DNA of 64,000 nucleotides from Chamaelirium japonicum (lineage: Eukaryota; Streptophyta; Magnoliopsida; Liliales; Melanthiaceae). Numbering within the stretch: position 1 is the first letter of the stretch; each line of letters begins with the position of its first letter. Made by a program: the position numbers and the translations under genes. The stretch is from assembly GCA_947650365.1 (NCBI GenBank), contig OX393549.1, positions 97,646,016-97,710,015 on the forward strand, in the 5' to 3' direction. Of this stretch, positions 10,060 through 46,793 are shown one piece after another. The notes below the pieces were generated by a model. The model was not told where the DNA came from, ran no database searches, and worked only from the letters and a program-made list of their open reading frames with translations.

Positions 10060-10275
10060 AAACATTTAAAAAAAAAAAACCATTAAGAGAGAAAGAGGGA
10101 GAGAGAGATCTGACCACTTCCTTCAGCTTTAAATAAGGATCGGGGGATGCAGATCTGAGTCCTTTCTAAAAAAACCTGAAACAAAATCCATCTTCAAACA
10201 AAAAAAATTGTTTTTTTTTTGAGATAAACAAAAAAAAATCTGTGAGAATTATGATTGAAACATTGAGAAAAACCC

Positions 10276-10336
<61 letters not shown>

Positions 10337-10530
10337 ACCACTTCCTTCAGCTCTAAATAAGGATCGGGAGATGCATATCTGAGTCCTTTCTAAAAAACCC
10401 TGAAACAAAGTCCATCTTCAAACAAAAAAAAAAATTGTTTTTTTAAGATAAACAAAAAAAAATCTGTGAGAATTATGATTGAAACATTGAGAAAAACCAA
10501 TTAAAAAAAACCATTAAAAGAGAGAGAGAG

Positions 10531-10575
<45 letters not shown>

Positions 10576-10752
10576 ACCACTTCCTTCAGCTCTAAATAAG
10601 GATCGGGAGATGCATATCTGAGTCCTTTCTAAAAAACCCTGAAACAAAGTCCATCTTCAAACAAAAAAAAAATTGTTTTTTTTAGATAAACAAAAAAAAA
10701 ATCTGTGAGAATTATGATTGAAACATTGAGAAAAACCCATTAAAAAAAAACA

Positions 10753-10805
<53 letters not shown>

Positions 10806-10990
10806 CACCACTTCCTTCAGCTCTAAATAAGAATCGGGGGATGCAAATTTGAGTCCTTCCTAAAAAAAACCTGAAACAAAGTCCATCTTCAAACAAAAAA
10901 ATTTTGTTTTTTTTGAGATAAACAAAAAAAATTTGTTAGATAAAGAAATCTGTTAGAGAGAGAGAGATCTGACCCGGGGAAGCTCTCAAT
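10060..10990. repeat. Tandem array of about 230-bp units with (GA)n cores
   Basis: The marker ACCACTTCCTTCAGCT recurs at about 10114, 10337, 10576 and 10807. Each unit holds A-rich phrases, CTGAAACAAAGTCCATCTTC and a (GA)n run of 30-55 bp. A fifth copy lies at 13165-13560 as part of a larger duplicated block. No coding content was seen. Confidence 0.8.
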
Positions 10991-11073
10991 CGCCCCTTCG
11001 GGATGCAGATCGGGCGGATGCAAAGGAGAAAAAAAAAAAAGAAATTTGGGATTTGGGGAGGGAGGGAGAGATC

Positions 11074-13334
11074 GCGTGATGGTGCTCAAGCTGAGGGATT
11101 TGGGGAGGGAGGGCTGGGGCGATCAGGCTGCGAGATTTGGTGAGGGAGGGGGCGATCGTGTAATCGCGGGGGAGTAATAATAATAATGCTAAATAGCCAA
11201 CTCGTTTGACTTTGACGACGTTTGCTAAATAGCCAACTCACGTGATGTGGAATGCTGGCGGTCCTCATTGTTGGGAACATATTTGCGGGGGTAATGGGAT
11301 GATGCCACGTAATGTTTGACAAAGTAGAGATCTCGGTCTCTTTCTGTACGGAAGCACGGGTCTGACCCGAACCGGACCCGCTCAATCCGAACAATAGATA
11401 ATTATAGGTAAACCTAGTTAAAATTTTGAACGGATTTGAAAAAAATAAAAAATAGAAAATTTTTTCTAAATAACCACATGGTATTCCATATATCCAAAAA
11501 TAACCACCAGGTTTTCTTATTTACTATTATGATTACTTACACTTGTGAAATCCTATGCACGTGTGTCTCCATTTTATTTCTTCCAAACATCCCCATCCCT
11601 TTAATCGCTTCCTCTAACTGCATCAAAACCATCTTTTATCCCTTTCTTTGTTGTTTTCCTTGCCATCACCGGTGAATATTCCGGCCGGACCCCTTCAATC
11701 GATGAAAATCGACGGGAATCACACAGGAACCATGCCGGAGTGACGCTAGAACCCATTTTCCCCAAGTGTTTCTTCGTTGGCGATCGGATCTCGTGAAGAA
11801 CCGTCGCACGGTAGAAATCGTTGGCGATCGGATCTCGTGGATTGAGGCACGCCGAAATACCACCTAAATTCCACCGAAACGCGTGATGGTGCTCGATCAG
11901 GCTGCGAGATTTGGTGAGGGAGGGGGCGATCGTGTAATCGCGGGGGAGTAATAATGCTATATAGCCAACTCGTTTGCCGACGTTTGTTGACGACTCCACG
12001 TGATGTGGAATGCTGGCGGGTTCTCATTGTTGGGAACATATTTGTATGGAAGCGAGGGTCTGACCCGAACCCGACCCGTTCAATCCGAACAATGGTTAAT
12101 CATAGGTAAAACTAGTTAAAATTTTGGACGGATTTGGATTAAAAAATAGGAAAATTTTCCTAAATGACCACCTGGTATTCCATATATCCAAAAATAACCA
12201 CCAGGTTTTCTTATTTCCTATTATGATCACTTACACTTGTGAAATCCTATGCACGTGTGTCTCCATTTTATTTCTTCCAAAAATCCCCATCCCTTTAATC
12301 GCTTTCTCTAACTGCATCAAAGCCATCTTTTATACCTTTCGTTGCCGTTTTCCTTGCCGTCACCGGTGAACATTCCGGTCGGACCCCTTCAATCGATGAA
12401 AATCGACGGGAATCACGCCGGAACCATGCCGGAGCGACGCTAGAACCCATTTTCCCCAAGTGTTTCTTCGTTGGCGATCGGATCTCGTGAAGAACCATCG
12501 CACGGTAGAAATCGTTGGTGATCGGATCTCGTGGATTGAGGCACGTCGGAATACCACCTAAATCCCTCCGGAACTGCCATTGCTAGAGGAAGGAAGAACA
12601 CTCATTGTTGCAATCGACTGAAATAGAGGTAAAAATCCAAAAAAATGAAGCCCTAGATATTGTAGAAATTTGATTCTGTACAGGTTGTCTAGGTGTAAAG
12701 TTTTTACGCTTATTTGTGCTTAGCAGTTTCTGTATTATGTACAGGTTGTCTAGACGTAAAGTTTTTGCGCATATTTACGTTTAGCAGTTTCTATATTACG
12801 TACAGGTAGTTTAGACGTAAAGTTTTTGCGTTTATATGCGCTTAACAATTTCTATATTATGTACATATTGTTTTAGGGGTAAATATCAATAAATTTTAGC
12901 ACTTGTTTTATACATCTATATCTGCGCTTAGAATGTTTTCAAATTTATTAAAAATTTTACAAATTTTTACAGTGTGTTATGCGCAAATCTGTATTATTGA
13001 TATGTTGTTTTAAGCGTAAATCCGCGCTCAGTAGTATCTGTATGTTTTAGGTGTAAAGTTTCTGCATATTTATTTAGGCACTCATATGCGCTTATGTACG
13101 CTTATCTACGCTTAGAAATTTATGTATTATGTACAGGTTGTTTAGGCATAAAGTTTTTGCGCTTATAAGGATCGGGGGATGCATATCTGAGTCCTTTCTA
13201 AAAAACCCTGAAACAAAGTCCATCTTCAAACAAAAAAAAAATTGTTTTTTTTAGATAAACAAAAAAAAATCTGTGAGAATTATGATTGAAACATTGAGAA
13301 AAACCCATTAAAAAAAAACCATTAAGAGAGAGAG

Positions 13335-13369
<35 letters not shown>

Positions 13370-14578
13370 CACTTCCTTCAGCTCTAAATACGAATCGGGG
13401 GATGCAGATTTGAGTCTTTCTAAAAAAACCTGAAACAAAGTCCATCTTCAAACAAAAAATTTTTGTTTTTTTTGAGATAAACAAAAAAAATTTGTTAGAT
13501 AAAGAAATCTGTTAGAGAGAGAGATCTGACCCGGAGAAGCTCTCAATCGCCCCTTCGGGATGCAGATCGGGCGGATGCAAAGGAGAAAAAAAAAAAAAAT
13601 TGGGATTTGGGGAGGGAGGGAGAGATCGTGTGATGGTGCTCAAGCTGAGGGATGTGAGGAGGGAGGGCTGGGGCGATCAGGCTGCGAGATTTGGTGAGGG
13701 AGGGGGGCGATCGTGTAATCGCGGGGGAGTAATAATGCTATATAGTCAACTCGTTTGCCGACGTTTGTTGACGACTCTACGTGATGTGGAATGCTAGCGG
13801 GCCCTCATTGTTGGGAACATATTTGCGGGGGGCAATGGGATGATGCCTCGTAATGTTTGACAAACTAGAGATCTCGGTCTCTTTCTGTACGGAAGCGCGG
13901 GTCTGACCCGAACCCGACCCGCTCAATCCGAACAATGGATAATCATAGGTAAAACTAGTTAAAAATTTGGACGGATTTGGATAAAAAAATAGAGAAATTT
14001 TCCTAAATGACCACCTGGTATTCCATATATCCAAAAATAACCACCAGGTTTTCTTATTTCCTATTATGATTACTTACACTTGTGAAATCCTATGCACGTG
14101 TGTCTCCATTTTATTTCTTCCAAAAATCCCCATCTCTTTAATCGCTTCCTCTAACTGCATCAAAACCACCTTTTATCCCTTTCGTTGTTGTCTTCCTTGC
14201 CGTCACCGGTGAACATTCCGGCCGGACCCCTTCAATCGATGAAAATCGACGGGAATCACGCCGGAATCATGCCGGAGTGCCGCTAGAACCCATTTTCCCC
14301 AAGTGTTTCTTCGTTGGCGATCGGATCTCGTGAAGAACCGTCGCACGGTAGAAATCGTTGGCGATCGGATCTCGTGGATTGAGGCACGCCGGAATACCAG
14401 CTAAATCCCATCGGAGCGCGTGATGGTGCTCGATCAGGCTGCGAGATTTGGTGATGGAGGGGGCGATCGTGTAATCGCGGGGGAGTAATAATGCTATATA
14501 GCCAACTCGTTTGCCGACGTTTGTTGACGACTCCACGTGACGTGGAATGCTGGCGGGTCCTCATTGTTGGGAACATAT
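11074..14578. repeat. About 0.8-kb tandem units within a 2.5-kb duplicated block
   Basis: The marker GTGATGGTGCTC begins units at 11074, 11881, 13628 and 14417, giving spacings of 807 and 789 bp. The GCTCTCAATCGCCCCTTCGG leader near 10980 recurs near 13537, so a block of about 2.56 kb including part of the GA array is duplicated. Each unit contains GACCCGAACCCGACCC words, the phrase CATGGTATTCCATATATCC or a close variant, and GGCGATCGGATCTCGTG twice. The fourth unit is interrupted at 14578 by the copia element and resumes at 20691. Short open frames are not conserved between copies, so the units look non-coding. Confidence 0.75.
12676..13165. repeat. 61-bp minisatellite, decaying
   Basis: The phrase GTACAGGTTGTCTAG..GTAAAGTTTTT..GCTTAGCAGTTTCT repeats about every 61 bp from 12676 to about 12870. 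It continues as increasingly degenerate copies to about 13165. It separates the truncated second 0.8-kb unit from the next GA array copy. Confidence 0.65.
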
Positions 14579-15367
14579 TGTTGGTTGATTTTAATATTTA
14601 TAATTTTAGTGTATATGATTTTGGGAATCCAAACCCTTTTATCCTTTTGTCTCTTTTGGCTGAATCTTTTGAGAGTTATTTATTTTGTAAGTGGAAATTG
14701 GGTCCCACAAGTCTTGTTATGGTGGTGTACTTGTTTGACTTGGTACACACACTCTTTTATGAGGGTGTTTGAATATTGAATTCACTTTATATTCTTTAGG
14801 CTAACCAAAGTACAGCACTTGAGTGCTATGGTACGGTGAGCCACTAGTGAATCAATGCACCTTTTGGTCCAATGGGTTTTTGTGAGTCTCTAGTGAATCA
14901 ATGCACATTTTGGTCCAATGGGTTTTCGTGCGACTCTTCAGGAGTTGGGAATAACATCTCTTCAATTTTGCATCCCAATACGAGGGACACATCCCTATGA
15001 AGGGTCACACCTCTATCCAACAGGTGAATGGGTGCTATGTGCACTGTTCATAACTTTATAGGGACTAATAGGGCTTTGAAAAGAGATACGGGAAAACCGA
15101 GACATAGAGTTTTTGTTTTTTCTTTCTTATTTTTGAGTCTTGGACAACAGTTGTGATTGCAATCCTTGAGTTCGGAGATTCCTTAGTTCTTGTGCACGTT
15201 AAGGGATCTGACGGTCCGTTGTATCTTGGGAGTAGTTTGCCAAATAAGCCTGTGCACTTAAAGGTGGCAATATCTATTCTTAAGTCAGCGCCAAGCGTGC
15301 CTCGGATCATTTTCTTGTTTTTCATTCTTATTTTATCTCTGTGTTATCCATTCTATTTTCACCAACA
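14579..15367 (+). repeat. 5' LTR of the copia element
   Basis: 789 bp, TGTTGG to CCAACA. It differs from the 3' LTR only at 15240 (C versus T) and 15299 (G versus A), both transitions. It contains a direct repeat GTGAATCAATGCAC..TTTTGGTCCAATGGG at about 14846 and 14894. The 18 bases at 15266-15283 are almost perfectly complementary to the bases that follow the LTR. Confidence 0.95.
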
Positions 15368-15387
15368 ATTTAAGAATAGATACTGCC
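15266..15387 (+). other. Unusual primer-binding region: self-complementary 18-mer
   Basis: Immediately after the 5' LTR there is no TGGTATCAGAGC, the initiator-tRNA primer site usual in plant copia elements. Instead 15370-15387 (TTAAGAATAGATACTGCC) is the reverse complement of 15266-15283 (GGCAATATCTATTCTTAA) with one mismatch. The pair spans the LTR junction with an 86-base loop. Either the element primes on an unusual RNA, or the transcript folds back here. Confidence 0.6.
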
Positions 15388-15391
15388 TTCT

Positions 15392-18300
15392 ATGACTAGT
15401 ATGGATAATTGTGCCAAGAGATCCGATAAGATTGATAGGTCCCTCAAACCCAAAATTTTTGATGGCAAAGATTTCAAACGGTGGCAACGCCGTATGAAGT
15501 TTTGACTTTCATCTTTGAATATCTTCTATGTGATATCTGATCCCACACCTTCTAGTGTTCCAACACTTTCTGAAACTGGTGAAACTGTCAAATCCGATTC
15601 CGAGAAAATTGTCAAATTCAATCTAGATGATTATTCTTGTCATGGACATATTCTGAGTGCTATGAGTGATTCTCTTTATGATCTTTATTGTGAGACACCA
15701 TCTTCCAAAGAATTGTGAGAAACCCTCGAGAAGAAATATGGGCAAGAGAATGCTGGAGAAGAGAAGTATGTAGTGGGAGAGTACTTTGACTTCAAGATGG
15801 TCAATGATCAGCCCGTGATAGAGCAAGTACATCAAGTTCAAAACTTGGTGACGAAGATCATAGCCAAAGGTATTCCCATCGATGAACGTATTCAAGTACC
15901 GGCATTGATCGACAAGCTTCCGCCATCCTGGAGTGACTTCCAAATCCTTCTCAAGCATAAAAGAGAAGCGATGACATTGGATGATCTCATAATGTCGATT
16001 CAGATAGAGGAGAAGCATCGAATCAAGCACAAACCGCTTTCTACTCATGAGCAAGGAGGTATGGCTAATTTTATTCAATCAAAGAATAAGTCTTTTCCAA
16101 AGAAATCCAAGAAAGGAAAAAACAAGTTTAAGCCAATTGGCAAGATCCAGAAAGATCAAAACAAGAAGACTTGTTGGGTGTGCGGCAAGTTTGGTCACTT
16201 TGCCAAACAATGCCGACAAAGGAAGGATAAGGAGATTGGAGAACAATCTCGAAGTGTTGCTCTTACTCCTCAGGCAAATATGATATGCAGCACTACCACT
16301 GGGGTATCAAATTTAAGGTTAGAAATATCTAAACCTGAAGTAAATTTGACTTATCAACCTACTGATTGGTGGGTTGATACAGGTGCAAATATTCATGTGT
16401 GTTCTGAATTCTCCTCATTTATATCCTATCAGGATACCCGAGGAAGAACTGTGATAATGGGGAACTCCACTATTGCACACGTGCTAGGAGAAGGGAATGT
16501 GAATCTACGCTTCACATCTGGGAACGTGATTACTCTTCACAACGTGCAATATGTGCCTGAAATCCGGAAAAATCTTATTAGTGGTGTGATCTTAAGCCAA
16601 GAAGGCTATAAACTTGTATTTGAGTCGAACAAGTTTGTTATTTCTAAAAATAATATCTTTATTGGTCTTGGATATTTGTGTAATGGCTTGTTTAAATTGA
16701 GCATTCTATCTAATAAAATTAAGTATGCTTCATCGTCTATGCTTTTAAATGTGGAATCTTCTGATATTTGGCATATTAGACTGGGGCATGTTAATTTTCA
16801 TACTATTAGAAAAATGATGAAATTAGGTTTAATTCCTATGTCTAATATTATAGTTGATTCTAAATGTGAGATTTGCGTACAAGCAAAACAATCTAGAAAA
16901 TCATTTTATTCTGTTTGTCGTTCTACTACGTTGCTAGAACTCGTTCATAGTGATATATGCGAGTTAAATGGAGTTCTAACAAGGGGAGGTAGAAGGTATT
17001 TCATAACTTTTATAGATGACTTTTCTAGATATTGTTATGTGTATTTGATAAAATCAAAAGATGAAGCATTTCTAAAATTTTGTAATTTTAAGTCTGAAGT
17101 GGAAAACCAAACCGAAAAGAAAATTAAGCGGTTAAGAACCGATCGGGGAGGTGAGTTTTGCTCTGCTGAATTCACTAAGTTTTGTGAAAGTAATGGGATA
17201 ATCCATGAAACCACAGCACCTTATTCACCACAATCTAATGGTGTGGCAGAAAGGAAGAATAGAACATTTATAGAGATGATAAACTCTTTGTTAACTTGTT
17301 CTGGTTTACCCAAGAACTTGTGGGGAGAAGCATTATATGCATCTAATAATGTTCTAAATCGAGTTCCTTTCAAAAAGCAGGACAAAACCCCTTTCGAACT
17401 TTGGTTTGGTAGAAAACCTAGTTTGAATTTTTTGAGAGTATGGGGATGCCTTGCTAAGGTAAAAATCCCTAACTCTAAGATTGACAAACTAGGACCAAGA
17501 ACTTTTGATGGCATTTTTATTGGTTATGCTTTTCATAGTCATGCATATAGATTTCTTATTTTAAAATCTGATAATCCTGAGTATGCTCCTAACTCTATTA
17601 AGGAATCTAATGATGCTGTATTTTTTGAAAATATATTTCCTATGCTTAATATGAATAATTCTTCCATTTCTACGACTTCCTCTATTTCAAAATCTTCTGA
17701 GAAAACTGTAGAAACTAGAGAGCCGGAATTATGTCTTGAACCTAGAAGGTCCAAAAGACCTAGGGTTGAGAAAAACTTCGGTGATGAGTTTTATACATTT
17801 TCTCTTGAGAGTGAGCCTATAACCTATGGAGAAGCCATGTCTAGCTCTGAAGTTTCATTTTGGAAAGAAGCCATCAAGAGTGAAATGGACTCTATAATGG
17901 CTCATGGTACTTGGGACTTGACAGATCTTCCTATTGGGATCAAACCAATTGGATGCAAATGGATCTTTAAAAAGAAATTCAATTCAGACGGATCCATAAA
18001 TAAGTACAAAGCTAGACTAGTGGCTAAGGGGTTTAAGCAGAAGGAAGGTATTGATTATTTTGATACATATTCTCCTGTAACTAGGATGACTACCATTCGA
18101 GTGCTAATTGCAATAGCTGCATCATATCACCTCGAGATACATCAAATGGATGTTAAGACCGCATTTCTTAATGGGGTTTTAGAGGAAGAAATTTATATGG
18201 AACAGCCAGAAGGATATGTAGTCAAAGGACAGGAAAATAAAGTATGTAAATTAGTGAAATCTCTATATGGGTTAAAGCAGGCACCAAAACAATGGCATGA

Positions 18301-19366
18301 AAAGTTTGATAGTGTAATTCTTTCCAATGGTTTTTCTATATGTGAATCTGATAAATGTGTATATTGGAAATATTTTGGTTCTTCTTTTGTTATTATGTGC
18401 CTGTATGTAGATGATATTCTAATCTTTGGCAATAATATTGATCATATAAAGAAAACTAAAATATTATTGAGTACTAACTTTGAGATGAAGGATCTTGGAG
18501 TTGCAAATGTAATATTAGGTATCAAGCTTACAAGAACTACAAGTGGTATATCTCTACATCAATCTCATTATGTGGAAAAGGTTCTAAAAAGATTTGGTTT
18601 CTATGATTATAAGCCAGTAAGTACTCCTTATGATGCAAGCTTAAAATTAAAGAAAAATTGTGGGGATGCTGTATCACAACTTAAATATTCACAGCTAATA
18701 GGAAGTTTAATGTATCTGGCTAATTCTGGAAGGCCAGACATCTCCTATGCTGTAGGAAGATTAAGTAGATACACTAATAATCCTGATGATTCTCATTGGG
18801 CTGCACTGATTAGACTCGTAAGGTACCTTAAAGGAACCATGGAGTATAGTATATTATATACTGGAGATCCAACTGTGCTTGAGGGGTACAGTGATGCTAA
18901 TTGGATCTCAGATTCTGAAGAAACCAAGGCCACTAGTGGATATGTATTCACTCTAGGAGGTGCAGCAGTGGCTTGGAGATCTTCTAAACAGACCATAATT
19001 ACAAGGTCGACAATGGAGGCCGAGTTAGTGGCTCTCGAGTTAGCTGGAAGTGAGGCTGAATGGCTTAAGGGATTATTATCCGAGCTACCTGGTATAGATA
19101 AGCCAATTCCTGGGGTTCTCATACACTGTGATAACCAAGCCACTCTAGCAAAGATTAAGAGTAAGAACCATAACTCTAAAAATTCTAGACATATAGAGTT
19201 AAGGTATAAGATTTTGAGAAAGCTAGATACGACTGGGGTAATAACTCTAATTTATACAAAGTCGGAGGATAATTTAGCAGATCATCTTACTAAAGGATTG
19301 TCAAGAGGACAAGTCCTTAATTCTTCTAGGAGGATGGGTCTTAAAGACCTAAAGCCTATATCATAA
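15392..19366 (+). CDS. Copia Gag-Pol polyprotein, two internal stop codons
   Basis: One frame runs from ATG 15392 to the stop at 19366 (1324 codons), broken only by TGA at 15503-15505 and 15716-15718. Both sit where Trp is expected and fit TGG to TGA changes. From the ATG at 15773, 1197 residues are open. Gag ends with zinc knuckle [14 protein letters not shown] (16172). The protease has DTGA (16376). The GAG-pre-integrase His/Cys region spans 16772-16876. The integrase DD35E triad is at 16952, 17141 and 17249. Reverse transcriptase has YVDD (18404). RNase H has Asp at 18893 and Glu at 19016. Length and order match complete plant copia polyproteins. All pol catalytic residues are kept, so only the gag stops impair it. 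Confidence 0.95.
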
Positions 19367-19896
19367 ATCACCGTTAGCAGCAACCCAACCTTATTGAACG
19401 GAGATCCCGGGATTAAGGTTCAATGGGAAAAACAAGCTAATTGGGTGACCAGTGGAGCACAAAATAATCCTCCTAATATTGTGTGCTCGCCTACAGATGT
19501 TAAGGAAGACTAATGTCTAAATGTTGTCAAGGCCTTTAAGGCAGGATATGGCAGGATATCCTTGGAGACAAACACCTATATGAGTGTGACTGTGAGGCCG
19601 CAGTCTATGAGAATTTGAGAGGCTTATTCTCTAGATCACTCAGGAATTCAAGATACTGTCGCAAGGCCGTAATGCGAACCACTGATAGAACTCAAGCTCG
19701 ATCTTACAGTATGTTGTTCGATATAATAAAATCTATGTATATGGGTTCAAGTTCAAAACTTCGGTTACTTAGGACTTGCATAGATGGAATTATATCAACT
19801 AGAAGTGGGTTCAAATCCAAAAGATACCCATCTTTGAAAACATATTGTACTGTTGTCAAATTTTATTGTTTTAAATATTTAAATCATGTGGGGAAA
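19367..19896 (+). other. Copia 3' non-coding region and polypurine tract
   Basis: 530 bases between the pol stop and the 3' LTR contain no reading frame. They end in the polypurine tract GTGGGGAAA (19888-19896), directly abutting TGTTGG. Confidence 0.8.
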
Positions 19897-20685
19897 TGTT
19901 GGTTGATTTTAATATTTATAATTTTAGTGTATATGATTTTGGGAATCCAAACCCTTTTATCCTTTTGTCTCTTTTGGCTGAATCTTTTGAGAGTTATTTA
20001 TTTTGTAAGTGGAAATTGGGTCCCACAAGTCTTGTTATGGTGGTGTACTTGTTTGACTTGGTACACACACTCTTTTATGAGGGTGTTTGAATATTGAATT
20101 CACTTTATATTCTTTAGGCTAACCAAAGTACAGCACTTGAGTGCTATGGTACGGTGAGCCACTAGTGAATCAATGCACCTTTTGGTCCAATGGGTTTTTG
20201 TGAGTCTCTAGTGAATCAATGCACATTTTGGTCCAATGGGTTTTCGTGCGACTCTTCAGGAGTTGGGAATAACATCTCTTCAATTTTGCATCCCAATACG
20301 AGGGACACATCCCTATGAAGGGTCACACCTCTATCCAACAGGTGAATGGGTGCTATGTGCACTGTTCATAACTTTATAGGGACTAATAGGGCTTTGAAAA
20401 GAGATACGGGAAAACCGAGACATAGAGTTTTTGTTTTTTCTTTCTTATTTTTGAGTCTTGGACAACAGTTGTGATTGCAATCCTTGAGTTCGGAGATTCC
20501 TTAGTTCTTGTGCACGTTAAGGGATCTGACGGTCCGTTGTATCTTGGGAGTAGTTTGTCAAATAAGCCTGTGCACTTAAAGGTGGCAATATCTATTCTTA
20601 AGTCAGCGCCAAGCGTACCTCGGATCATTTTCTTGTTTTTCATTCTTATTTTATCTCTGTGTTATCCATTCTATTTTCACCAACA
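19897..20685 (+). repeat. 3' LTR of the copia element
   Basis: 789 bp, starting TGTTGG after the polypurine tract and ending CCAACA before the target duplication CATAT. Confidence 0.95.
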
Positions 20686-26408: not shown

Positions 26409-29400
26409 TCATGCATTCTCGTCTTTAATCAAAAATAGCTCCCTGATCTTATTGATTTCGGTGACCACCTCTCGCATCTCCATTCGTTCTTTTGGTGCGT
26501 CGCTCGAACATAATAGGCCGATTCTAACAAAGGAGAGTATGCATCTTCTGCTTCTTTCTCTAGCACTGCTCTCATTCATGAAGTTGTCGCCCTCTGCTTC
26601 CCCTCCGCCTCGCGATACTAGCTGCGGATCAAGGATCTTCATGTCACCTTCTGGAAACACCTTCTCCACATGTCTTCGAAGGTTCATACCATCTTTAAAC
26701 ATGTCATCTGTAGGTCTCTTTCCTGTCAACATCTCCAGCAAGAGTACTCCGAAGCTGTAGACATCACCCTGGGTGGAGACTTGTCCACCCATCCCGTACT
26801 CTGCAATCGATTCCTACATTAGTTTGGAGATGCTAATTATCATGTTTGTCACATGAACGAAGTTTATGGATCAATACCTGGCGCAACATACCCTACGGAT
26901 CCTTTGATGCCTGTAGAGCTATTTAAGTTCTTAGATGCCACAGAGAAGGTTTTAGAAAGGAGCCGTGCCAGACCGAAGTCCCCCACATAGGCTGTCATAT
27001 CACCGTCGAGAAGAACGTTGCTCGGCTTTAGATCACAATGGACGACTGGTGGCTGACAGCTGTGATGAAGATAATCTAGCGCAGAAGCCACGTCGATGGC
27101 TATGTTCAACCTCTGGATGAGGGTTAACTTAACTGGCTGAGGATGCTCAAGTCCAACTTCTGGATGCAACCACTTCTCTAGGCTCCCATTAGGCTTGTAC
27201 TCAAAGATCAATGCTTTGAAATCATTACCCCTATGGTCCACACTTGAGCACGCGGTTATGATCTTGACGAGATTCCTATGCCGTATGTTTCTTAAGGCCT
27301 CACATTCGGCGGTGAAACTCCTCGAAGCACCTTTTCGGTGAAGGTTGAGTACCTTCATAGCAACGATGTCTTCTTCTGGACCTATCTTCCCTTTGTACAC
27401 AGAACCAAAGCTTCCAGCGCCGATCAAGTTGGATGAAGAGAACCCATCAGTTGCTTTATAAATATCAGAATAAGAGACCTTTCTGTAAATCTCACCATGG
27501 AAAGAAGGCGTATGAGATGGGCCTCTTGTCTTCCTCCACCTATATAGACTACCAATGAAACACAACAATACAATCACAACTGCACCCGCAACTAGGATTA
27601 CTACTCTAAGGTAGCTCATTCGTTGCTTAGGAGCATGGGCGAAGCATGATGGCAGTTGTAACTTTGGATAACCCCCGCAAAGCTTCTTGTTCCCGAGGAG
27701 AAAAAATTCACTTGCATTGTTGAACACACCGCCACTCGGAACTTCACCCTCAAAATCATTGAATGACAGATTAAGAGACAGCAGAGAACCATATGTCTTA
27801 AAGAAATCTGGGATTTGTCCAGACAAATTGTTACGAGATAGATCTAGTTCCTTGAGACCCTTTAAGTTTTTGAAAGATTGGGGGATTTTCCCTTGAAAGG
27901 AGTTGCCTTCCATATTTAGCTGTTCCAAGTGCTCACATGCACCGAGGGTGGGAGGTATTTCTCCGGACAGTTGGTTCTCTGAGACAAGCAAGCCCCCAAG
28001 GTTGATCAGCTGACCGACTTCCATCGGTATGGACCCAACGAGGGAATTATGTGATAGGTCCATGAACTGAGAAAAATAGGAAAGGCTAAGAAGCTCCCTC
28101 GGTATGGTTCCTCCAAGCACATTATGTGAAAAGTTAAGTATCCCCAGACTAGTGCAGCCTCCGATACTCGCAGGTATAGCGCCATTCAACTCATTTTCTT
28201 GAATAAAAAGTTTGGACAACTGATCGAGGTTGCCTATATCAGATGGGATCGGCCCCGAAAGATTATTTACCGATAAGTCCAGGATTTGCAGGTTCCGGAG
28301 CTTTCCGATGGCAGCAGGAATGCTTCCTCTGAAAAGGTTTTTACTTAGATTCAGGACGGTTAGGTTGACATGGTTCCCGATCGCTGCGGGGACAGAACCA
28401 GATATTCGATTCTTTCCGATCACAAGTTGTTTAAGCCATGTGGAGAGGTTACCGAAGGAGGCAGGCAATGGTCCCTCAAGCTTGTTGTCGTATAGATACA
28501 GAATCTCCAAGAAGCTACAATTGGCCAAGGAAGAGAGGAAGCTCCAATCGTCGGCTTGGAGCTGATTCCAGCCCAGATTCAGTACCCCCAGGTTTCGAAG
28601 AGAGCCCAGATTGGAAGGCACTACACCGCTGAACAAATTATTGCCGAGATCGAGAAATCCAAGCCCGGAAGCATTGGACAATGAAATTGGGATCGGCCCG
28701 TCGAATCGGTTCGATTGCATCACCAGATTCTGGAGGTTAGGAAGGGTGAGTCCCAAGTCTGGTGGGAGAGCTCCGGAGAGATTGTTGACTCCGAGGTCGA
28801 AGTATGTGACGGTCGAGAGGTTATAAAGCGAGGAGGGGATTGTGTTGGACAAGCTGTTGATCGAGAGATCGAGCATTAGCAGGCCGGGGATTTTGCCTAG
28901 GCTTTCTGGAATGCTTCCCTCCAAATTATTATCCAGTAGAACAAGATACTGGAGTGAGGAGCGGTTCCCCAATGAGGGTGGGATCTCACCCGTGAGATGG
29001 TTCGTCGAGAGATCCAGAAAGCTGAGCGGCGAGGGGTTGGTCCAGAAGGGCGGGATGCCACCGGTCAGTCCATTCGTCCCCAGGACGAGAATGACGAGGG
29101 TGGTGATGTTACCGAGCGAAGGCGGGATCCCTCCCGTTAAATAATTGCGCGATAGGCCGAGAAACTGCAGGGTGGAGCTGTTTGCGAGGAAGGGGGGGAT
29201 GCCGCCGGTGAGGCTGTTGTTCCATAGCCCGACATTGACGAGCGAAGGGCTGCTTCCCAGCAGTGGAGGGATGCGGCCGATGAGATTGTTGCCGCCGAGT
29301 ACCAGTTTTTCGAGCACCGGAAGGGAGCCGATGTTGGCGGGGATCTCGCCGCCGAGCATGTTGTATTTCAGGTTGAGGTGTTTGAGGTTGAAGCAGCGGG

Positions 29401-29965
29401 AGAGATTGGATGGGATGGCGCCGCTGAGCTTGTTGTCCGTTAGGCCGATGGTCTGTATATAAGAACAATGAGAGAGGGTGGCCGGGATTTCACCTTCGAG
29501 GAAATTCACGCTCAGGTCGAGGTGGCGGAGCCGGGAGAGACGGCCCAGCTCCTCCGGGATGCGCCCGTGGAGCTGGTTGTCCGAGAGGTGGAGCCTCCTC
29601 AGGAAGGTGAGGTTGGAGATGAGGGGTGAAATGGGTCCGGCGAGACCGAGGGATTCGAGGTCCAAGGCTACGACCTGCAGCGGGTGTCGCCGGCCGCACG
29701 TGACGCCCCGCCACTTGCAGTAATGGAGGGATCCACTGTTGTCGTCCCAGGACGCCAAGGATCGGAGGGGGTCGGATAGAAGGGATTTGAAGGAGAGGAG
29801 GGCAAGCCGGGGGTCGGTGGTGGTTTTGTTTTCCATGACCGGAAGGGCAATAGCAGCAGCAGGAGGAGGAGGAGGTACGAGCGATGAGCTGCTCACACAG
29901 AAAGAGAGAAGGACGAGGGTGAGTGCATGAAGTGAACCCAAATTCTGGACTCGTAAGAGATCCAT
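26409..29965 (-). CDS. LRR receptor-like kinase, Xa21/EFR type (subfamily XII), two exons
   Basis: Exon 1 is 29965-26878 and exon 2 is 26800-26409. The 77-bp intron runs from GTATTG to TTGCAG and splits the Glu codon in GYVAPEYGMGG. Product: 1159 residues. Signal peptide at about 1-28, LRRNT with CKWRGVTCG, some 22-24 extracellular leucine-rich repeats, then the transmembrane segment (about 787-806, VVILVAGAVVIVLLCFIGSL). The kinase has a Gly-loop GAGSFGSV (849), VAMK, HCDLKPSN (Asp978) and DFG (Asp996). Cys rather than Arg before the catalytic Asp makes it a non-RD kinase, typical of pattern-recognition receptors such as Xa21, FLS2 and EFR. Intron position and length fit the family. It acts at the plasma membrane, probably in microbe sensing; the ligand cannot be inferred. 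No defects seen. Confidence 0.95.
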
Positions 29966-30022
29966 CGACTGAGATTCGTAGGGATTGAAATTTGGTACAG
30001 CTCAACTTCATTGCACATAGGT

Positions 30023-30924: not shown

Positions 30925-33452
30925 TCACATCGTTATAGAGCATAGATCGTCATGGACCGTTCTGATGTTAGGCCTGTCATTTAAAGGAAGAATACACCTA
31001 AGAGATATGGAGAGCAATTCATCCATCACCCTCGGAGCCTCCTCCAAGCCCACGATGTCTCGGTCGAAGCAATCGGTCCCTCGTCCCTCCCTGGTGCACA
31101 TTTGGACCCAATCCGTGAGATCCACCGCACCTGTCTGGCCTGAAATAATATCACCAGCACTCTTTCGGGTCAGCAGCTCCATTAGGATCACCCCAAAAGC
31201 GTACACATCGGCCTTGAACGACGGGGATGGCTTGGGTGCCGCTGCCAGCTCCGGGGCCCGGTACCCGAGTGCGCCCAGGTTTAGGATCTGCTCGGCAGTG
31301 CCACTTGGTGTCATGAGGCGATGCAGGCCGTAGTCCATCAACCGGGCGGTTAGGTCAGAGCCGGTCAGGAGTATGTTTGATGGCTTTACATCTCCATGAG
31401 GCAGGCCCCAATCGTGATGCAGGTGATACAGACAGCGAGTTATGTCGACTGCAATCTTCAACCTTTGCCTAACTGATAGTCGGGAGTATCTTCTCGGTGT
31501 CGACTCTGCAGAGAAAATATAAGAACATTTAAATCTAATTTTCAGCTCAGAAGAGCATAAATGAGGGAGACAGAAAGAAGTAGTTGAGAACTAGAAAGTT
31601 TCTATTAGCATCTCATCGGCGTCGGTTGACTTTACGAATGAAAGGCATGGTTAGGCTTTATGGATGAACCTGTGGGCTATGTATGAGTCGTATGACCATG
31701 ACGAATTAAGACAAACACCGTTCTCCTTGTCAGTGTTTAAAACTCGATAAAACTCAGCCATGACTGATCGAGTCGACTCGACTCAGCCAGATTTCGAGAA
31801 GAGTTAATCCGTCTTGTGAGACCCGACCGAGTTTACTTAACTCGGCATACTTTTAAGTCGAGTTCAAGTTTTGATTCTTGAACAGTGCTCCCCATCCCAA
31901 ATTCTTACCCAAACTAAGGTTAATAGAGGGGCTTACCATAAGACCTGGAAACCAGTTAGCCGATAGGTAAAACCTATCTTATAGAAAATTCAAGCACATT
32001 TTATTATCAACAAACTAGACTTCTGATACCATGACTGATAAGAAGATGAGTATCTTCCAACAGCTCCGACTGTTAGTGACCGATGAATTGACTTCTAATA
32101 GATCCAAGTTTCTAAAAAGCACTAGGAGCTAATCGGGCAATGGGGGACCGCCTAGCGCCTAGACAGTACCTAAGCGTGTTGACTTATTTTTAATTATTTT
32201 AATATTATATATAATATATAATATTGTCAACCAGTCCGTCTGAGCCCGCCTGGACTAGCCCACCTAGATTTCTTTATATGAATCTGTAGAAAAGATTAGA
32301 AATTGTTAATATTGTCAACCAACCCGTCTGGCCCGCCTAGACCGCCGCCTAGCTCCGCCTGGGAGATTGGCCGCTTTTCTGCAGCACCTAGGGATTAGGC
32401 TGGGCAGTGGGGGACCGCCTAGCGTCTAGGCGGCCGCCTGGGCCGCTTTTTAGAACAGAGGATAGATCAACCTTACTGTTTGAAAATCTGAAATATCTGA
32501 GCTAGACCGATCTTGTCCTTGAATAGACTTCTGATACCATGACCGATCTTGTTTATCAATCTTGTGCTTCTGATAGACTGATACCATGACATTTTATCCA
32601 TGAGGAACTTTACATAACATTTTATTATCCGAAAAGCACAAGACCGATGAATAGACATCTGATACCATGGCATTTTATTATCAACAAACTAGACTAAAAT
32701 AATCGCCTAGGTTGGCGACCTATGAAGCATTGATAATTCAAAAACCCCTGCCATCAGATTTTTGAATACTCAGGGATACATATTCGATACTTGAGAGATG
32801 TATCCGATACTTGAGAGACGTATCCGGTACACGTCGATACTCGAGGTGACGTATCTGATACATTTTAGACGTATCCTGAATAAAAAGAAAACATATACTC
32901 AGATACATGGGGATATAGTATGGATACAACGGTTTACGACTGAATATAACTCAATTACGGGTGTAGGTTAAAGGTTGAGCAGAGTTGGGGGTTGCAAGTC
33001 AGGCATAATTACTTGTCAAGATGCGGATAATCACTTTTACACATGACACACAACCCATATATACTCAAAATCTCACTCACCGGGATATTCTCGGTCCTGG
33101 AGTTCAAGAGCTCGTCTCCACCACCCCTTCCCTCTCTCTTTTAGCCCAACCACCACCGTGCATGTTCCCTCCCTCAACTCCATCTCTCGACTTTGAATCT
33201 CTCACTCTATGGCCCCACATTGCACATGTTCCCTCCCTTAATTCTCTCTGGGTCGTTTGAGAGATCGAGGATCATCGCTTGGCCCGCCTCTTGATACACT
33301 AAAGGTTTGGACTCTCTTCTCTATGGATTTAAACTATTTATCATTGTATCTTAATTTGTTTTATATATATTGTGAATTTTAAAATGTTTGTTATTGATAG
33401 TTTTGAACCACCCCACCCCCCCCCACACACACACACACATATATGTGTGTGC

Positions 33453-33543
<91 letters not shown>

Positions 33544-34397
33544 AAACGGGAGGTGAGCTGCCAGCCTTTTTTTTTTTTTGAGCATTCCCTATCAACCGTT
33601 CGATTGGTGGAGATTAAAGGGCTCAGATCGAGCTGTATTACAGCTGCATTACAGCACAGCCGTAAATACAGCTGTGTGCCTCTCCCCCTCCCGACCTCCA
33701 GCCAACCTCCCGACCACCCTCCACCTCTCCCGTCTCCGGCCCCGATCCCCTCCGGCGCCCCCGGTCCCATCCGGCCGTCTCCGGTCCGGCCCCAAGCCCT
33801 ACGCCCGCCTCCGGCCCGGCCCCAGGCCTTACGCCCTGCGCCTCCCGACCCCTGCTCCCGCCTCCGGCCCGGCCCTGCGCCTCCCGACCTCCAGCCCACC
33901 TCCCGACACCTCCAGCCCACCTCCCGACCCCTGCGCCCGTCTCCGGCCGGCCCCCGGCCCTGCGCCCGCCTCCGGCCAGGCCCCCGTCCGCCGCCCCCTG
34001 TGCCTGTCGGATCGGAGCCGATCGCAGTCCCCCCTCCTCCGGCGGAGATCGCCGGAGTCGAGCACAGTGGTCCGCAAGTGGCTGGAGTCGAAGGATCTCG
34101 CCGTGGGAGAAGATCGCATTTGAGGAGGGCGCCGGAGATGCAGATCTCGTCACCGGAGGTCGGATCTGAGGGAGACCCGGTGCCGAAGGGGGGAGCCGGT
34201 GCCGGTGCCGGAGGGGGAAGCTGGAGCGGGAGGTGGTCGCTGTCGGGGAGGGGGCTGCAGCTCGTGAGAGAGAGGGAGAGAGAGAGCTGTTGGGTGATTA
34301 TTGGGTTTTTTTTTTAAGCGGATGGTCCATGATGGCAATCGGAGGGCTGTAAGCTGACAGCCCAAATGAAGTAATAGGCTGTCAGCTCATACCCCGT

Positions 34398-34460
<63 letters not shown>

Positions 34461-34963
34461 AGAGAGAGAGAGAAAGAGAGATGATAGGATGCAGCGTGCG
34501 GCGTGCTGAGAGAAAGTGCGATGGAATTTTGGGCTGTCTGATTTATCCGATCCAACGAATAGGATTCACCCGGAACAGCCCAAATCATTGTTACTGTAGG
34601 TCGTTCGGGTGAATCCCATCCGTTGGATCCTAACAGTGAAAAATTTTTGGGCCGTCCGATCGGATGGATCCAACGGATGAGATTTTTTGGGCCAAGTGAA
34701 TCCCATCCATTGGATCCATCCGATCGGACGGCCCAAAAAAAATTTGTTGTTACTGTAGCAACTACAGTAACAGCATTAAAAACTTGGTCGTCCGATCGGA
34801 TGAATGCAACGGATGGAATTCACCCGGACGACCCAAATCATTGTTACTGTAGCCGCTACAGTAACAGCGATTTAGGCTGTTCCGGGTGAATCCCATTCGT
34901 TGGATCAGACGGCCCAAAATTCCACCGCACTTTCTCCAGGCAGTGCACAGCGTACTGTATCAG

Positions 34964-35041
<78 letters not shown>

Positions 35042-35185
35042 GCATGCTATAATGCGGCATGCGGTAAGTGCGGCACCATACCGCAACCGTCTGATGCACC
35101 CTCTGTGTGCATCGCATGCACGCAACGGTGCATCATACGGTTGTAGTGCGGTGCCGCACTTACCGCATGCCGCATTATAGCATGC

Positions 35186-35262
<77 letters not shown>

Positions 35263-35617
35263 AATGATACATTGCAGCCGGTAACGTGCAGCCTTAACGT
35301 GCGGCACCCCCTTCCGTGGTGTTTTTCAAAAAAAAAAATTGGGATTGATCACCTACCCTTGGATAGCACACACAAAAAATTTCAGCTCAATCCAAGACCT
35401 GTAAGCCGTCCAAATGGTTGATCAAAATGACGGTAAAAATAAAAAAACGATAAAAGTCGATCACATTTGAACGGCCTATAAGTCTTGGGTCGAACTGAAA
35501 TTTTTTGTGTGTGTTATCCAAGGGAAGGTGATCAACCTCCAAAAAAAATATCCCAAAAATACCTCCGAAGGGGGCGGCCGCACGTTAAGCCCGACGTTAC
35601 CGGTTACAATGTATCAC

Positions 35618-35674
<57 letters not shown>

Positions 35675-35929
35675 AAAATGCAGCATGCAGTGTTGCACCG
35701 CAGCCGTCTGATGCACCGCTGTGTGCATCGCACGCACCGCAGCGGTGCATCAGACGGTTGCGATGCGACGCCGTAGCCTAACACGCCTATATATATATAT
35801 ATATAGGGGAATGCTTAGGTGCGGTTTGCGGTCCGTGCGGTCCACGGTCAGCAGCAGTCCAATGCACTGGCCGTGTGCATTCGATGCACGGAGTGGTGCA
35901 TCGGACAACTGCGGACCGCACCTAAGCAT

Positions 35930-36007
<78 letters not shown>

Positions 36008-36151
36008 GAATGATAAAATGCGGCGTGCGGTGCGTGCGGCGTCGCACCGCAGTTGCCTGATGCACCGCTGCGTGCATCGCATGCACCGCAGCAGTGCATC
36101 AGGTGGCTGCGGTGCGACGCCGCACGCACCGCACGCCGCATCCTAACACAC

Positions 36152-36217
<66 letters not shown>

Positions 36218-36399
36218 TTGTCGACCGTTGATCGGATTGTTTTAAGTTTTTTTTTTATTTTTTTTTAATCATGATCTAAGTAGAGTGGATTGACCATCTA
36301 TAAAAGAAAAATAGTTAACAAGTACAACACGGCACCTGAATATAGGAGAGGAGTAGCGTGTTTGCTAGTCAGGAGGACCATGTTCCCTATTTCCAATTC

Positions 36400-36480
<81 letters not shown>

Positions 36481-39400: not shown

Positions 39401-42400
39401 AATTGGTTTCATAGATGTTTTGTACCTATTGATGTTTTAGACCAATAACTAACAATATATCTATTTTTTTATTGATGCAACCCTGCCATATGGTACCCAA
39501 GTATCGTATTGTATCTGATTTATATTTGTATTTTGTATGTCATTTGTAGAATCAGAGCCAAATAGCAAAATCTACTGGAACACTGCTTCCTTTATCCATC
39601 ACGCATATGATTTGAAAACCAATAATGATTAGAAGTGACAAATCCAAAGGAATTCCTCTGATTGCCATTATCAGGACAGCAAGGAAGCACATGTTGAAAC
39701 CATAGAGATGCAATGTCCAAAAACGCATATAGTAGTCCCTATGTTAATTATTATTCTCACATAATAATAATGCATATGTGCAGAACAGTGATTATCAGAC
39801 CTGGGACTCAAAATCAATAAATTCTATTATGCTGAAAACCTCTGTAAGAAAGCTGAGTTATGAACAAAAATCAAACTAATAATTGCAGCATATAAATAAT
39901 CGTATAGTTAGGAAACCTTAAAGGAAATAGAAACATCCAGAACTTCAAATAGAAATCAAGCCATGGAAATCTTACCATAAAGATGGAGTGACAAACTATC
40001 TCCGTTAACATAATCTGTTATTATCAACCTTTCTTGCTCCCTTGGACCCCAATAATAACCCCTCCATGAGATGATGTTTGGATGCCTAATGACTCCAATC
40101 CTTTTTGCTTCCTTAGCAAACTCTTTTTTATGTTTCACAAGGCCAACTCGCAACCACTTCACAGTCAACATATGACCGCTATCTAATGTGGCTTTATATG
40201 ATGTCCCATGACTGCTTCTACCAAGAACTTCTGCGGGGGCACGTGACAGTTCCTCAGCTGTGAAAATTAAAGAGCTGTCCAAGAAAAATAACTCTCCAGC
40301 CAATCGATCTGGTGAGTACACATCCAAAATCACGGGTTGCTCAGGCACAAGTGAATTGATAAAATGAGGTGAAGATGACAGTGGTGACCCTGGAGAAGAT
40401 TTCAATCCGGAGGTTGGAGGACAATGTTCTAGCTCATCAAGCTTCATAGATGCTGATCCGGTTTCTTTTGAATCAGAGTAGCCATATTCCACGGTCTCAG
40501 TTAACAATTCTTTTTGTGCAGATAATGATCGAGAAGCCGAAGTTAAGAGATGGTCGTTTGAAAAACTCATTGAAATTGGCACAGAATCATCTTTCGGAGA
40601 CTTAAAAATGTTAGTACGACCAAACCTCCCAAGCTTCACATCACTTCCAGAGGCTTGGCCTCTCGATCCATTTCTTCCACAAAATTCCTGGGACCTTCGT
40701 CTATAAAATGCCATTAATACAAACAAAATCAACATGACTGTCCCAATAGAACTGATAATGAATGCTACTCGTATGCTAGACTTCATACTACGATGTTGAC
40801 TTCCATCAACTCCAGTATTATTCGTTTCTACAGCCACAACACCTGAAGGTAGTAGTAAATTGTTTCCAGGATGAAATGAGGTACTTGGGAACCTCTCCAA
40901 ACTGTGAGGAATAGTGCCTGATAAATCATTATAGGAAACATTTAATACCTTTAGACCTGGTGGAAGCATTTCAGGGATCCTACCCTTGAAATGATTAACT
41001 GATAGATCTAGAAATTCCAACTCATCAAGCTTACTTATTTCATTTGGCAGCTCTCCAGATAAGGTATTATTTTGAAGATTGAGCAACTTAAGTCCTTGCA
41101 TGTTACCAATTTCCTGAGGCAATGAACCAGATAATGCATTGTCTGACAAATCAAGACTCTCCAAATGAGAATAAGAGGCAAGAACTAGTGACTCAGTTGA
41201 ATGTGGAATTTGAAATATAATAGCTCCAGTAAAGAAGTTCCCCGAGAGGTTCAAACTTGTCAGAGTTAATGATGAAAAAAGGCTTGGTAACATAGGCCCT
41301 GTGAGTTTGTTTAAACTAAGATCGATTACGGATAATCTTGGATAGCTTCCTAATACAGAAGGAAGATTACCTACTAAAGAATTATTTCTAATCTTGAGAG
41401 TGACAAGATTCCCAAATCCAGATGTCTCATTCGGATAGTACCCTGACAATGCATTTGAACTCAAATCAATGTACTCCACTGTATCACCCCAATTTTTTAT
41501 CACGGATAGGTCACCAGATAGCATGTTCTTGTTCATATCCAATGAAATGCAGCCCCCTAAATTTGAGGGCAATGAACCTGATAATGCATTTGAAGAAAGA
41601 TTCATAACCTTCAAAGTTGTAGAGTTAACAGACTGCATTTTACCTGCATGAAAGAAAATCATATTAAATTCAGATGTTGACTCCAACAAACTGAAGGTAG
41701 ACGGCGATGATTAGTAAAGCAGAATATTGAATCACGATTCACCAAAATCTCACTGTAAACGAATGTTGCTACCCACCATACCTCTCAAATTCAAATAAAT
41801 GCTATGGAAATTCAAGTACAAAGCAGATGCACACATCAAGAAAACAAGAAAAAAGCATTAAGCATCTCATACAAACCAGTCGACTAGTATGCTATGCACT
41901 TTAACATGTCAACAGTTGAAGTAAAAACATTGTGAGTTTGTGGATGCAAGAGGAATAGTTATATAAAGCATTTTAAGCAAATTAAGTCTGATCAACATGC
42001 AACACCAGCTATACCATCAAAATGCGGCATTTGATTTGCGTCATTTGGTTCGGGTGAGCGGAATAGACATTGAATGGGAATGAAAATTAAAAAGGAATAT
42101 GAATGAAAATGGGAATAATAAATGGAATGGGTGATGCAGCGGTAGTGGAAGAGATGGGTGGCAGCGGTAGTGGCCAATTGTGCAGTGGCGGATGGTGGTG
42201 GCAGTGATGGGTGGCGATGACGATTATGTTGTGGTGCGGTGGTGATGACAGTGGTTGGGTGCAAGTGGTGGTGATGGTGGGTTGTGCAGTGGTTGTGCTA
42301 GTGGTGGGTGGTGCGGTGGTTTATAGTGGTGGTCTATGCAGTTAAAGACTTAAAGGTGCACCTGGTTCACTAGGCTCCTCAAGGCTCAAGCCTGGCGCCT

Positions 42401-46703: not shown

Positions 46704-46793
<90 letters not shown>

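Follow-up and report, generated by a model that had tools for sequence, protein, structure and literature searches.

The 64,000-nucleotide stretch of DNA analyzed in this work (hereafter the window; positions 97,646,016 to 97,710,015 of the forward strand of contig OX393549.1, Chamaelirium japonicum assembly GCA_947650365.1, 1.52 Gb in 3253 contigs, at least twelve of which are of about 70 Mb or more) contains coding stretches of leucine-rich repeat (LRR) receptor kinases. Between those at 26864-30001 and 30925-31590 on one side and that at 39956-41710 on the other lies an array of short inverted-repeat elements embedded in a (TA)n microsatellite. Within the span 33456-36214, seven such elements (116 to about 860 bp) are placed end to end with (TA)n between them (Table 1), and the TA tracts measure, from left to right, 44, 56, 73, 44, 51, 18, 54, and 60 bp. 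The window has ten perfect TA tracts of 18 bp or more, and nine of these fall in 33456-36477. A first-pass annotation, made from the sequence alone, had indicated seven foldback elements in a row at approximately these positions; all seven are present, and the arm score of each exceeded those of all 200 dinucleotide shuffles. For elements 2-7 no same-length control segment of the window equalled the arm score, and for element 1 this was reached by 7 of 184 controls, because its best-scoring arms are internal; the true ends of this element pair with each other as inverted repeats. Scans of the window against Rfam (at the gathering threshold) and for tRNA genes gave no matches, and inside the seven elements no TA tract of at least 8 bp was found.

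The ends of the elements follow a common pattern, as in all seven the first base at the TA junction is G and the last is C. The spacers had initially been described as consisting of (TA)n only; TA tracts were indeed found at every junction, but at four left junctions (elements 1, 2, 4, and 7) a (GA)n run is also present between (TA)n and the element. The core reported to be common to four elements was recovered as a hairpin core of elements 3, 5, 6, and 7, which are pairwise 73-89% alike (counted over aligned columns, in either orientation). In the case of element 5, the outermost left bases have apparently been lost to, or replaced by, the TA tract, as judged from the alignment of the ends. 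A captured gene in element 1 was also considered and rejected, since none of the four open frames scanned gave a match above the Pfam cut-off, the sole match being DUF3915 (E 0.019, 15.4 bits versus a cut-off of 26.9).

The segment 36215-36401, adjacent to the right end of the array, has no inverted repeat of its own. It aligns, however, to the right-hand part of a TA-flanked 403-bp element found at another locus (L017), with 177 bases aligned and 81% identity over 182 columns, and the copy at L017 carries inverted repeats of about 81 bp. On the strength of this alignment, the segment is read as an eighth, truncated member of the array, and its interpretation as plain flanking sequence was rejected.

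Table 1. Elements, TA tracts, and GA runs of the array (window coordinates).
Feature	Position	Description
(TA)22 tract	33456..33499	left array edge
(GA)n run	33500..33541	left end of element 1
Element 1	33542..34401	~860 bp, interior GC-rich, ends GAAAACGGGAGGTGAGCTGCCAGCC / GAATACGGGGTATGAGCTGACAGCC
(TA)28 tract	34402..34457	
(GA)n run	34458-34480	left of element 2
Element 2	34480..34966	~487 bp, several internal inverted repeats
(TA)n tract	34967..35039	73 bp
Element 3	35040..35188	149-bp hairpin; right end, read inwards, GGGGCATGCTATAATGCGGC
(TA)22 tract	35189..35232	
(GA)n run	35233-35260	left of element 4
Element 4	35261..35620	360 bp, ends GTARTGATACATTG
(TA)n tract	35621..35671	51 bp
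Element 5	35672..35787	116-bp hairpin
(TA)9 tract	35788..35805	
Element 6	35806..35934	129-bp hairpin, ends GGGGAATGCTTAGGTGCGG / GGGTAATGCTTAGGTGCGG
(TA)27 tract	35935..35988	
(GA)n run	35989-36004	left of element 7
Element 7	36005..36154	150-bp near-perfect hairpin, ends GAGGAATGATAAAATGCGGC / GAGGTGTGTTAGGATGCGGC
(TA)30 tract	36155..36214	
Putative eighth element, truncated	36215..36401	right-hand part of 403-bp inverted-repeat element; break abuts (TA)30
(AT)38 tract	36402..36477	right array edge

The association with (TA)n was then followed through the genome, with the end of element 7 tested genome-wide and fetched samples used for elements 1, 2, and 5; relatives of elements 3, 4, and 6 were found by BLAST in the fetched loci. 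The window locus itself (L001) was dropped from the BLAST comparison, as well as from the end clustering, the segment scoring, and the phase, pair, and nesting counts given below. The 21-base end signature of element 7 has 697 copies in the genome (369 + 328), of which the reverse-strand ones were used, each copy being taken as counted once, while the forward-strand counts, with their overlapping starts, were dropped. A search of this kind, asking whether copies have (TA)n flanks, had been proposed with the first-pass annotation. TATATA lies within 30 bp of 246 of the 328 reverse-strand ends and within 60 bp of 311 of them, compared with 2.0% and 3.5%, respectively, of control positions in 200 kb of random sequence. 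In a fetched sample of 20 copies (approximately every fifth among the first 100 listed, all from contig C1), TA was present on the left in all 20, either directly or past a mostly (GA)n run, and on the right in all 18 copies for which that side was fetched. The end GAGGAATGATAAAATGCGGC, which overlaps the element-7 signature, has G or C at both positions -6 and -3 in only 2 of 559 copies, both of them GA-run variants, whereas the GC content of the control regions (42.6%) predicts this in about 18% of copies; none of the 559 was seen to lie in ordinary sequence. The TA specificity of the one end tested genome-wide is very strict.

For the remaining three elements, genome searches with DNA queries were made, in which the best 40 candidates were scored out of 3390 (element 5), 1464 (element 2), and 1669 (element 1). 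Of the best 40 element-5 candidates, among which is the window copy, 38 are flanked on each side by a TA tract of 10 bp or longer at a distance of no more than 100 bp. Among the best 40 for element 1 there were six nearly full-length copies from outside the window, and TA follows at all 12 of their ends, either immediately or after a run that is short or consists of (GA)/(CT); element-1 copies elsewhere carry (CT)n at the end opposite to that with (GA)n in the window. In ten of 12 fetched relatives of element 2, taken from its best 40, both flanks carry TA tracts of 8 bp or longer, although at one of these loci (L092) two of the tracts are only 12 and 10 bp long. The (TA)n flanking is, therefore, nearly general for the tested families.

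It was also found that such arrays are not special in this genome. Among the 39 other element-5 loci (seven of 3.1 kb and 32 of 1.3 kb), 28 contain at least two TA-linked inverted-repeat segments, with six segments in two of the loci, and an inverted-repeat score of at least 12 was reached by 92 of the 115 TA-bounded segments of element-5 loci versus 30 of 500 random segments. The 20 random 10-kb regions examined (L041-L060) contain 13 TA tracts with a length of 16 bp or more, spread over four regions, and one of the 20 (L041) carries a four-element array of other families. The initial impression that seven insertions of several families in one tract are unusual was, thus, not upheld, as multi-family non-nested arrays have been published (PMC5907723, PMC8449440) and are recurrent in this genome.

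Clustering of the junction ends yielded 16 clusters of at least three members, one of which is merely a TA run and another of which merges several related elements, lumped by the procedure into a cluster of 250 ends. Of 243 tracts, 76 have recognized end types on both sides, in 46 different pairs, where the list of end-type motifs was made by hand, 212 of 486 ends are unlabelled, and the two ends of elements 5 and 7 count as two types. Such mixing of neighboring end types favors repeated independent insertion over tandem growth. The fetched loci were also searched for nesting, i.e., for copies of elements 1, 2, or 4 split by another element, and no candidates emerged. Two further loci are worth mentioning: at L076, two element-7-type hairpins are seemingly fused without intervening TA, as in fused SaTars of guayule, and at L075 an element-7-type copy is cut mid-element and runs directly into a short TA stretch, followed by an element-6-type copy.

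The GA runs were analyzed separately. All 140 GA-run junctions counted (4 in the window, 134 in fetched loci, and 2 in random regions) come after a tract whose last base is A, and a given element type may have (GA)n/(CT)n at its left or its right end. The latter led us to reject a compound (TA)n(GA)n target, and the runs fit slippage from the terminal GA of the elements. The flank phase of 118 G...C segments was A/T in 84, A/A in 15, T/T in 13, and T/A in 6 cases, i.e., the parity was even in 90 and odd in 28. The mostly even phase suits a 10-bp target duplication, as in guayule, better than one of 9 bp, as in Medicago; a 9-bp duplication as a general rule was rejected, with odd parity in only 28 of the 118 segments.

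Considering these data, the array very probably consists of short, non-autonomous DNA transposons of the Mutator-like element (MULE) type, similar to SaTars, which were serially inserted into (TA)n. This reading builds on the observed TA flanks of the sampled families, the modular, non-nested order wherever it was checked, the mixing of families, and the G...C ends at the junctions. Its inferred part comprises a Mutator-type transposase and its supply in trans, together with the sequence in which the elements arrived, slippage, and any post-insertion growth of the TA tracts. The enzyme would paste each element into (TA)n, and the insertion would split the TA tract and leave TA on both flanks; as TA is left on both sides, the locus would remain a target, so that later elements, of the same or of other families, could land beside the earlier ones rather than within them. 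The self-renewal of the TA target, put forward in the first-pass annotation, may fit such a process. Replication slippage would then shift the lengths of the TA tracts and could draw out the terminal GA of some elements into (GA)n/(CT)n runs; element ends may also be eroded by the TA tract. The truncated elements abutting TA (36215 and L075) suggest that deletions also end at TA. A more speculative generalization, to which we give no more than a modest chance, is that many terminus families share one rule (TA, then G...C, then TA) and that insertion both renews and lengthens TA, which would create self-sustaining landing pads served by one or a few transposases.

It should be stressed that several observations weigh against this interpretation. 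The claim of strict (TA)n targeting stood for the element-7 end genome-wide and for the fetched samples of elements 1, 2, and 5, but it has exceptions: 17 of the 328 reverse-strand element-7 ends lack TATATA within 60 bp, at the element-5 loci L005 and L025 the right-hand TA is short or broken, the element-2 relative at L089, with TA to its left, ends to the right in (TAC)n(AC)n (about 1040-1085, in reversed orientation), and that at L090 has TA on the right, while its left side breaks inside the element without TA. No 9-10 bp duplication was seen in ordinary, non-TA sequence. The fetched loci, apart from the random L041-L060, were picked for carrying these elements (mostly 2, 5, or 7), and the counts therefore describe the neighborhoods of elements and not the genome at large; in the random regions, 5 of 19 TA-bounded segments (shorter tracts included) reach the inverted-repeat threshold. 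The two flank phases vary about independently, so tract erosion of the ends may contribute to the phase. Finally, the tenth long TA tract of the window, a perfect (TA)42 at 46707-46790, has no recognized element end on either side. It is an unoccupied potential target within the same window; the idea that it is an unfilled paralogue of the array site was rejected, since self-comparisons gave no flank-to-flank match.

The last-mentioned tract also bears on the alternative that the TA tracts are mostly a product of the elements, i.e., that a short TA site is entered and then greatly expanded. This explanation is compatible with serial insertion and we regard it as a real, although somewhat doubtful, possibility. 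Empty sites of the TAFT type in maize, of 6-8 bp, are reported to have expanded to up to (TA)50 per side (PMC5907723), the flanks of filled sites in Medicago exceed the empty ones (PMC4486113), and the concentration of the long TA tracts of the window in the array points in the same direction. Nevertheless, the later elements of the array must have entered TA that already existed, and the element-free (TA)42 shows that long tracts occur without them.

Another explanation is homologous recombination, in which circular intermediates with microsatellite filler recombine into existing (TA)n, as in the speculative model of Valdes Franco et al. 2018 (PMC5907723). Since this replaces the pasting step alone, it overlaps with serial insertion. 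It would account for differing microsatellites at the two ends of an element (e.g., L089) and for the truncated elements directly abutting TA (36215 and L075), and the approximate independence of the two end phases also speaks for it. We nonetheless consider it unlikely, because copies of one element type may carry (GA)n at one end or the other, and the position of all 140 GA junctions after A is predicted by slippage alone.

Growth of the array by tandem duplication, or by copying of hairpins within one tract, was the second mechanism offered by the first-pass annotation, and it is highly improbable. The core common to elements 3, 5, 6, and 7 would agree with it, and the neighborhood of elements 1 and 2 recurs at L092. 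The diversity of neighboring end types (46 pairs in 76 tracts) contradicts it, as do the similarities: the related hairpins of the window are only 73-89% alike, whereas, among the best 40 of 3390 candidates, copies of element 5 from elsewhere reach 91-92% over 115-116 bp, and up to 96% over 89 bp. An assembly artefact has a negligible chance, for although the lengths of TA tracts are generally error-prone, the sequences of the elements differ and the same architecture was found at many fetched loci.

With serial insertion as the preferred reading, the question of the superfamily arises. The elements are likely, but still putative, members of the Mutator superfamily. The TA flanks hide the target site duplication, of 8-11 bp in the MULE type, and (TA)n would equally mask a TA duplication of the Tc1/mariner type. 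Stowaway-type miniature inverted-repeat transposable elements (MITEs) of Tc1/mariner have a TA duplication and short conserved ends. The long arms and the GRGG/GGGG ends found here do not look like the Stowaway-type end motif, an observation that serves as a lead only. Long inverted-repeat arms together with G...C ends are present in the window elements, and the ends GGGGCATGCTATAATG (in the window) and GGGGTTTGCTATAATA (beside L085) resemble, by eye alone, the mask GGGGTTTGCTAGAACA of MuTAnT.

Three published systems, i.e., SaTar, Ac-mMITE, and MuTAnT, all assigned to Mutator-like elements (PMC5907723, PMC8449440, PMC4486113), are the closest points of reference. In guayule, rice, sorghum, and citrus, non-autonomous MULEs called SaTars form stacks that are described as non-nested and often composed of several families; one sorghum cluster has eight elements (PMC5907723). 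They share with the C. japonicum elements the small size and inverted repeats, the microsatellite flanks, often of (TA)n, the mixed non-nested arrays, the truncations, and the fusions; in C. japonicum, terminal inverted repeats were found in all seven whole elements, microsatellites flank most copies of the sampled families, and the stacking is mixed and, where checked, non-nested, as is typical of SaTars. The difference, comparing by description only, is that in 11 of 15 guayule families some members lie outside microsatellites and have 10-bp duplications (PMC5907723); no such duplications were seen here.

The Ac-mMITEs of pineapple, 46.1% of whose full-length copies lie in non-nested clusters, likewise combine TA flanks, (GA)n-type terminal runs, and non-nested clustering, and their authors ascribe the (GA)n and (TC)n at the ends, which are mostly GA/TC, to slippage (PMC8449440). 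They form two families, of 210-270 and 510-570 bp, whereas here, again comparing by description only, there are more terminus clusters and hairpins down to 116-150 bp. MuTAnT of Medicago truncatula, for which an autonomous mudrA-like partner is known, resembles the elements described here in the foldback structure, the TA targeting, and, as mentioned above, the end mask (PMC4486113). In its case, 14 of 218 copies lie outside perfect (TA)n and indicate 9-nt duplications, whereas the flank parity observed here favors an even length; additional filled sites have on average 15 repeats per flank versus nine in empty sites, and stacked arrays are not described in the available part of that article (PMC4486113). 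Micron of rice, as already stated in the first-pass annotation, and TAFT of maize are also (TA)n-flanked, like the elements here (PMC5907723, PMC12550479), and a survey of 207 plant genomes reported Micron-type elements as extensive in Poaceae and Rosaceae and otherwise in few species (PMC12550479). In view of these comparisons, we regard the window as a well-populated new instance of an already described pattern. Literature searches brought up no publication on this host.

One more genome rich in microsatellite-targeted transposon stacks, thus, joins those described. Given the strict end specificity, it is suited to asking how a Mutator-type transposase would recognize (TA)n and whether insertion lengthens the tract. 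It may also be added that TA microsatellite markers in such genomes may often adjoin transposons.

Apart from the array and the receptor-kinase coding stretches, the window carries other repeats. A copia-type long terminal repeat (LTR) retrotransposon occupies 14579-20685; it has a 1215-amino acid (aa) open frame with RVT_2 and integrase domains, and its LTRs are 99.7% alike over 789 bp, by which it is probably a recent insertion. It adjoins a block of tandem repeats of about 239 bp, with (GA)n inside (10086-14579), together with a copy of neighboring sequence, about 93% alike (10596-12042 and 13165-14579). At the start of the window, 1-893 and 1760-2661 are inverted copies, about 900 bp long and 94% alike, that extend to the first base and possibly make up a larger foldback element.

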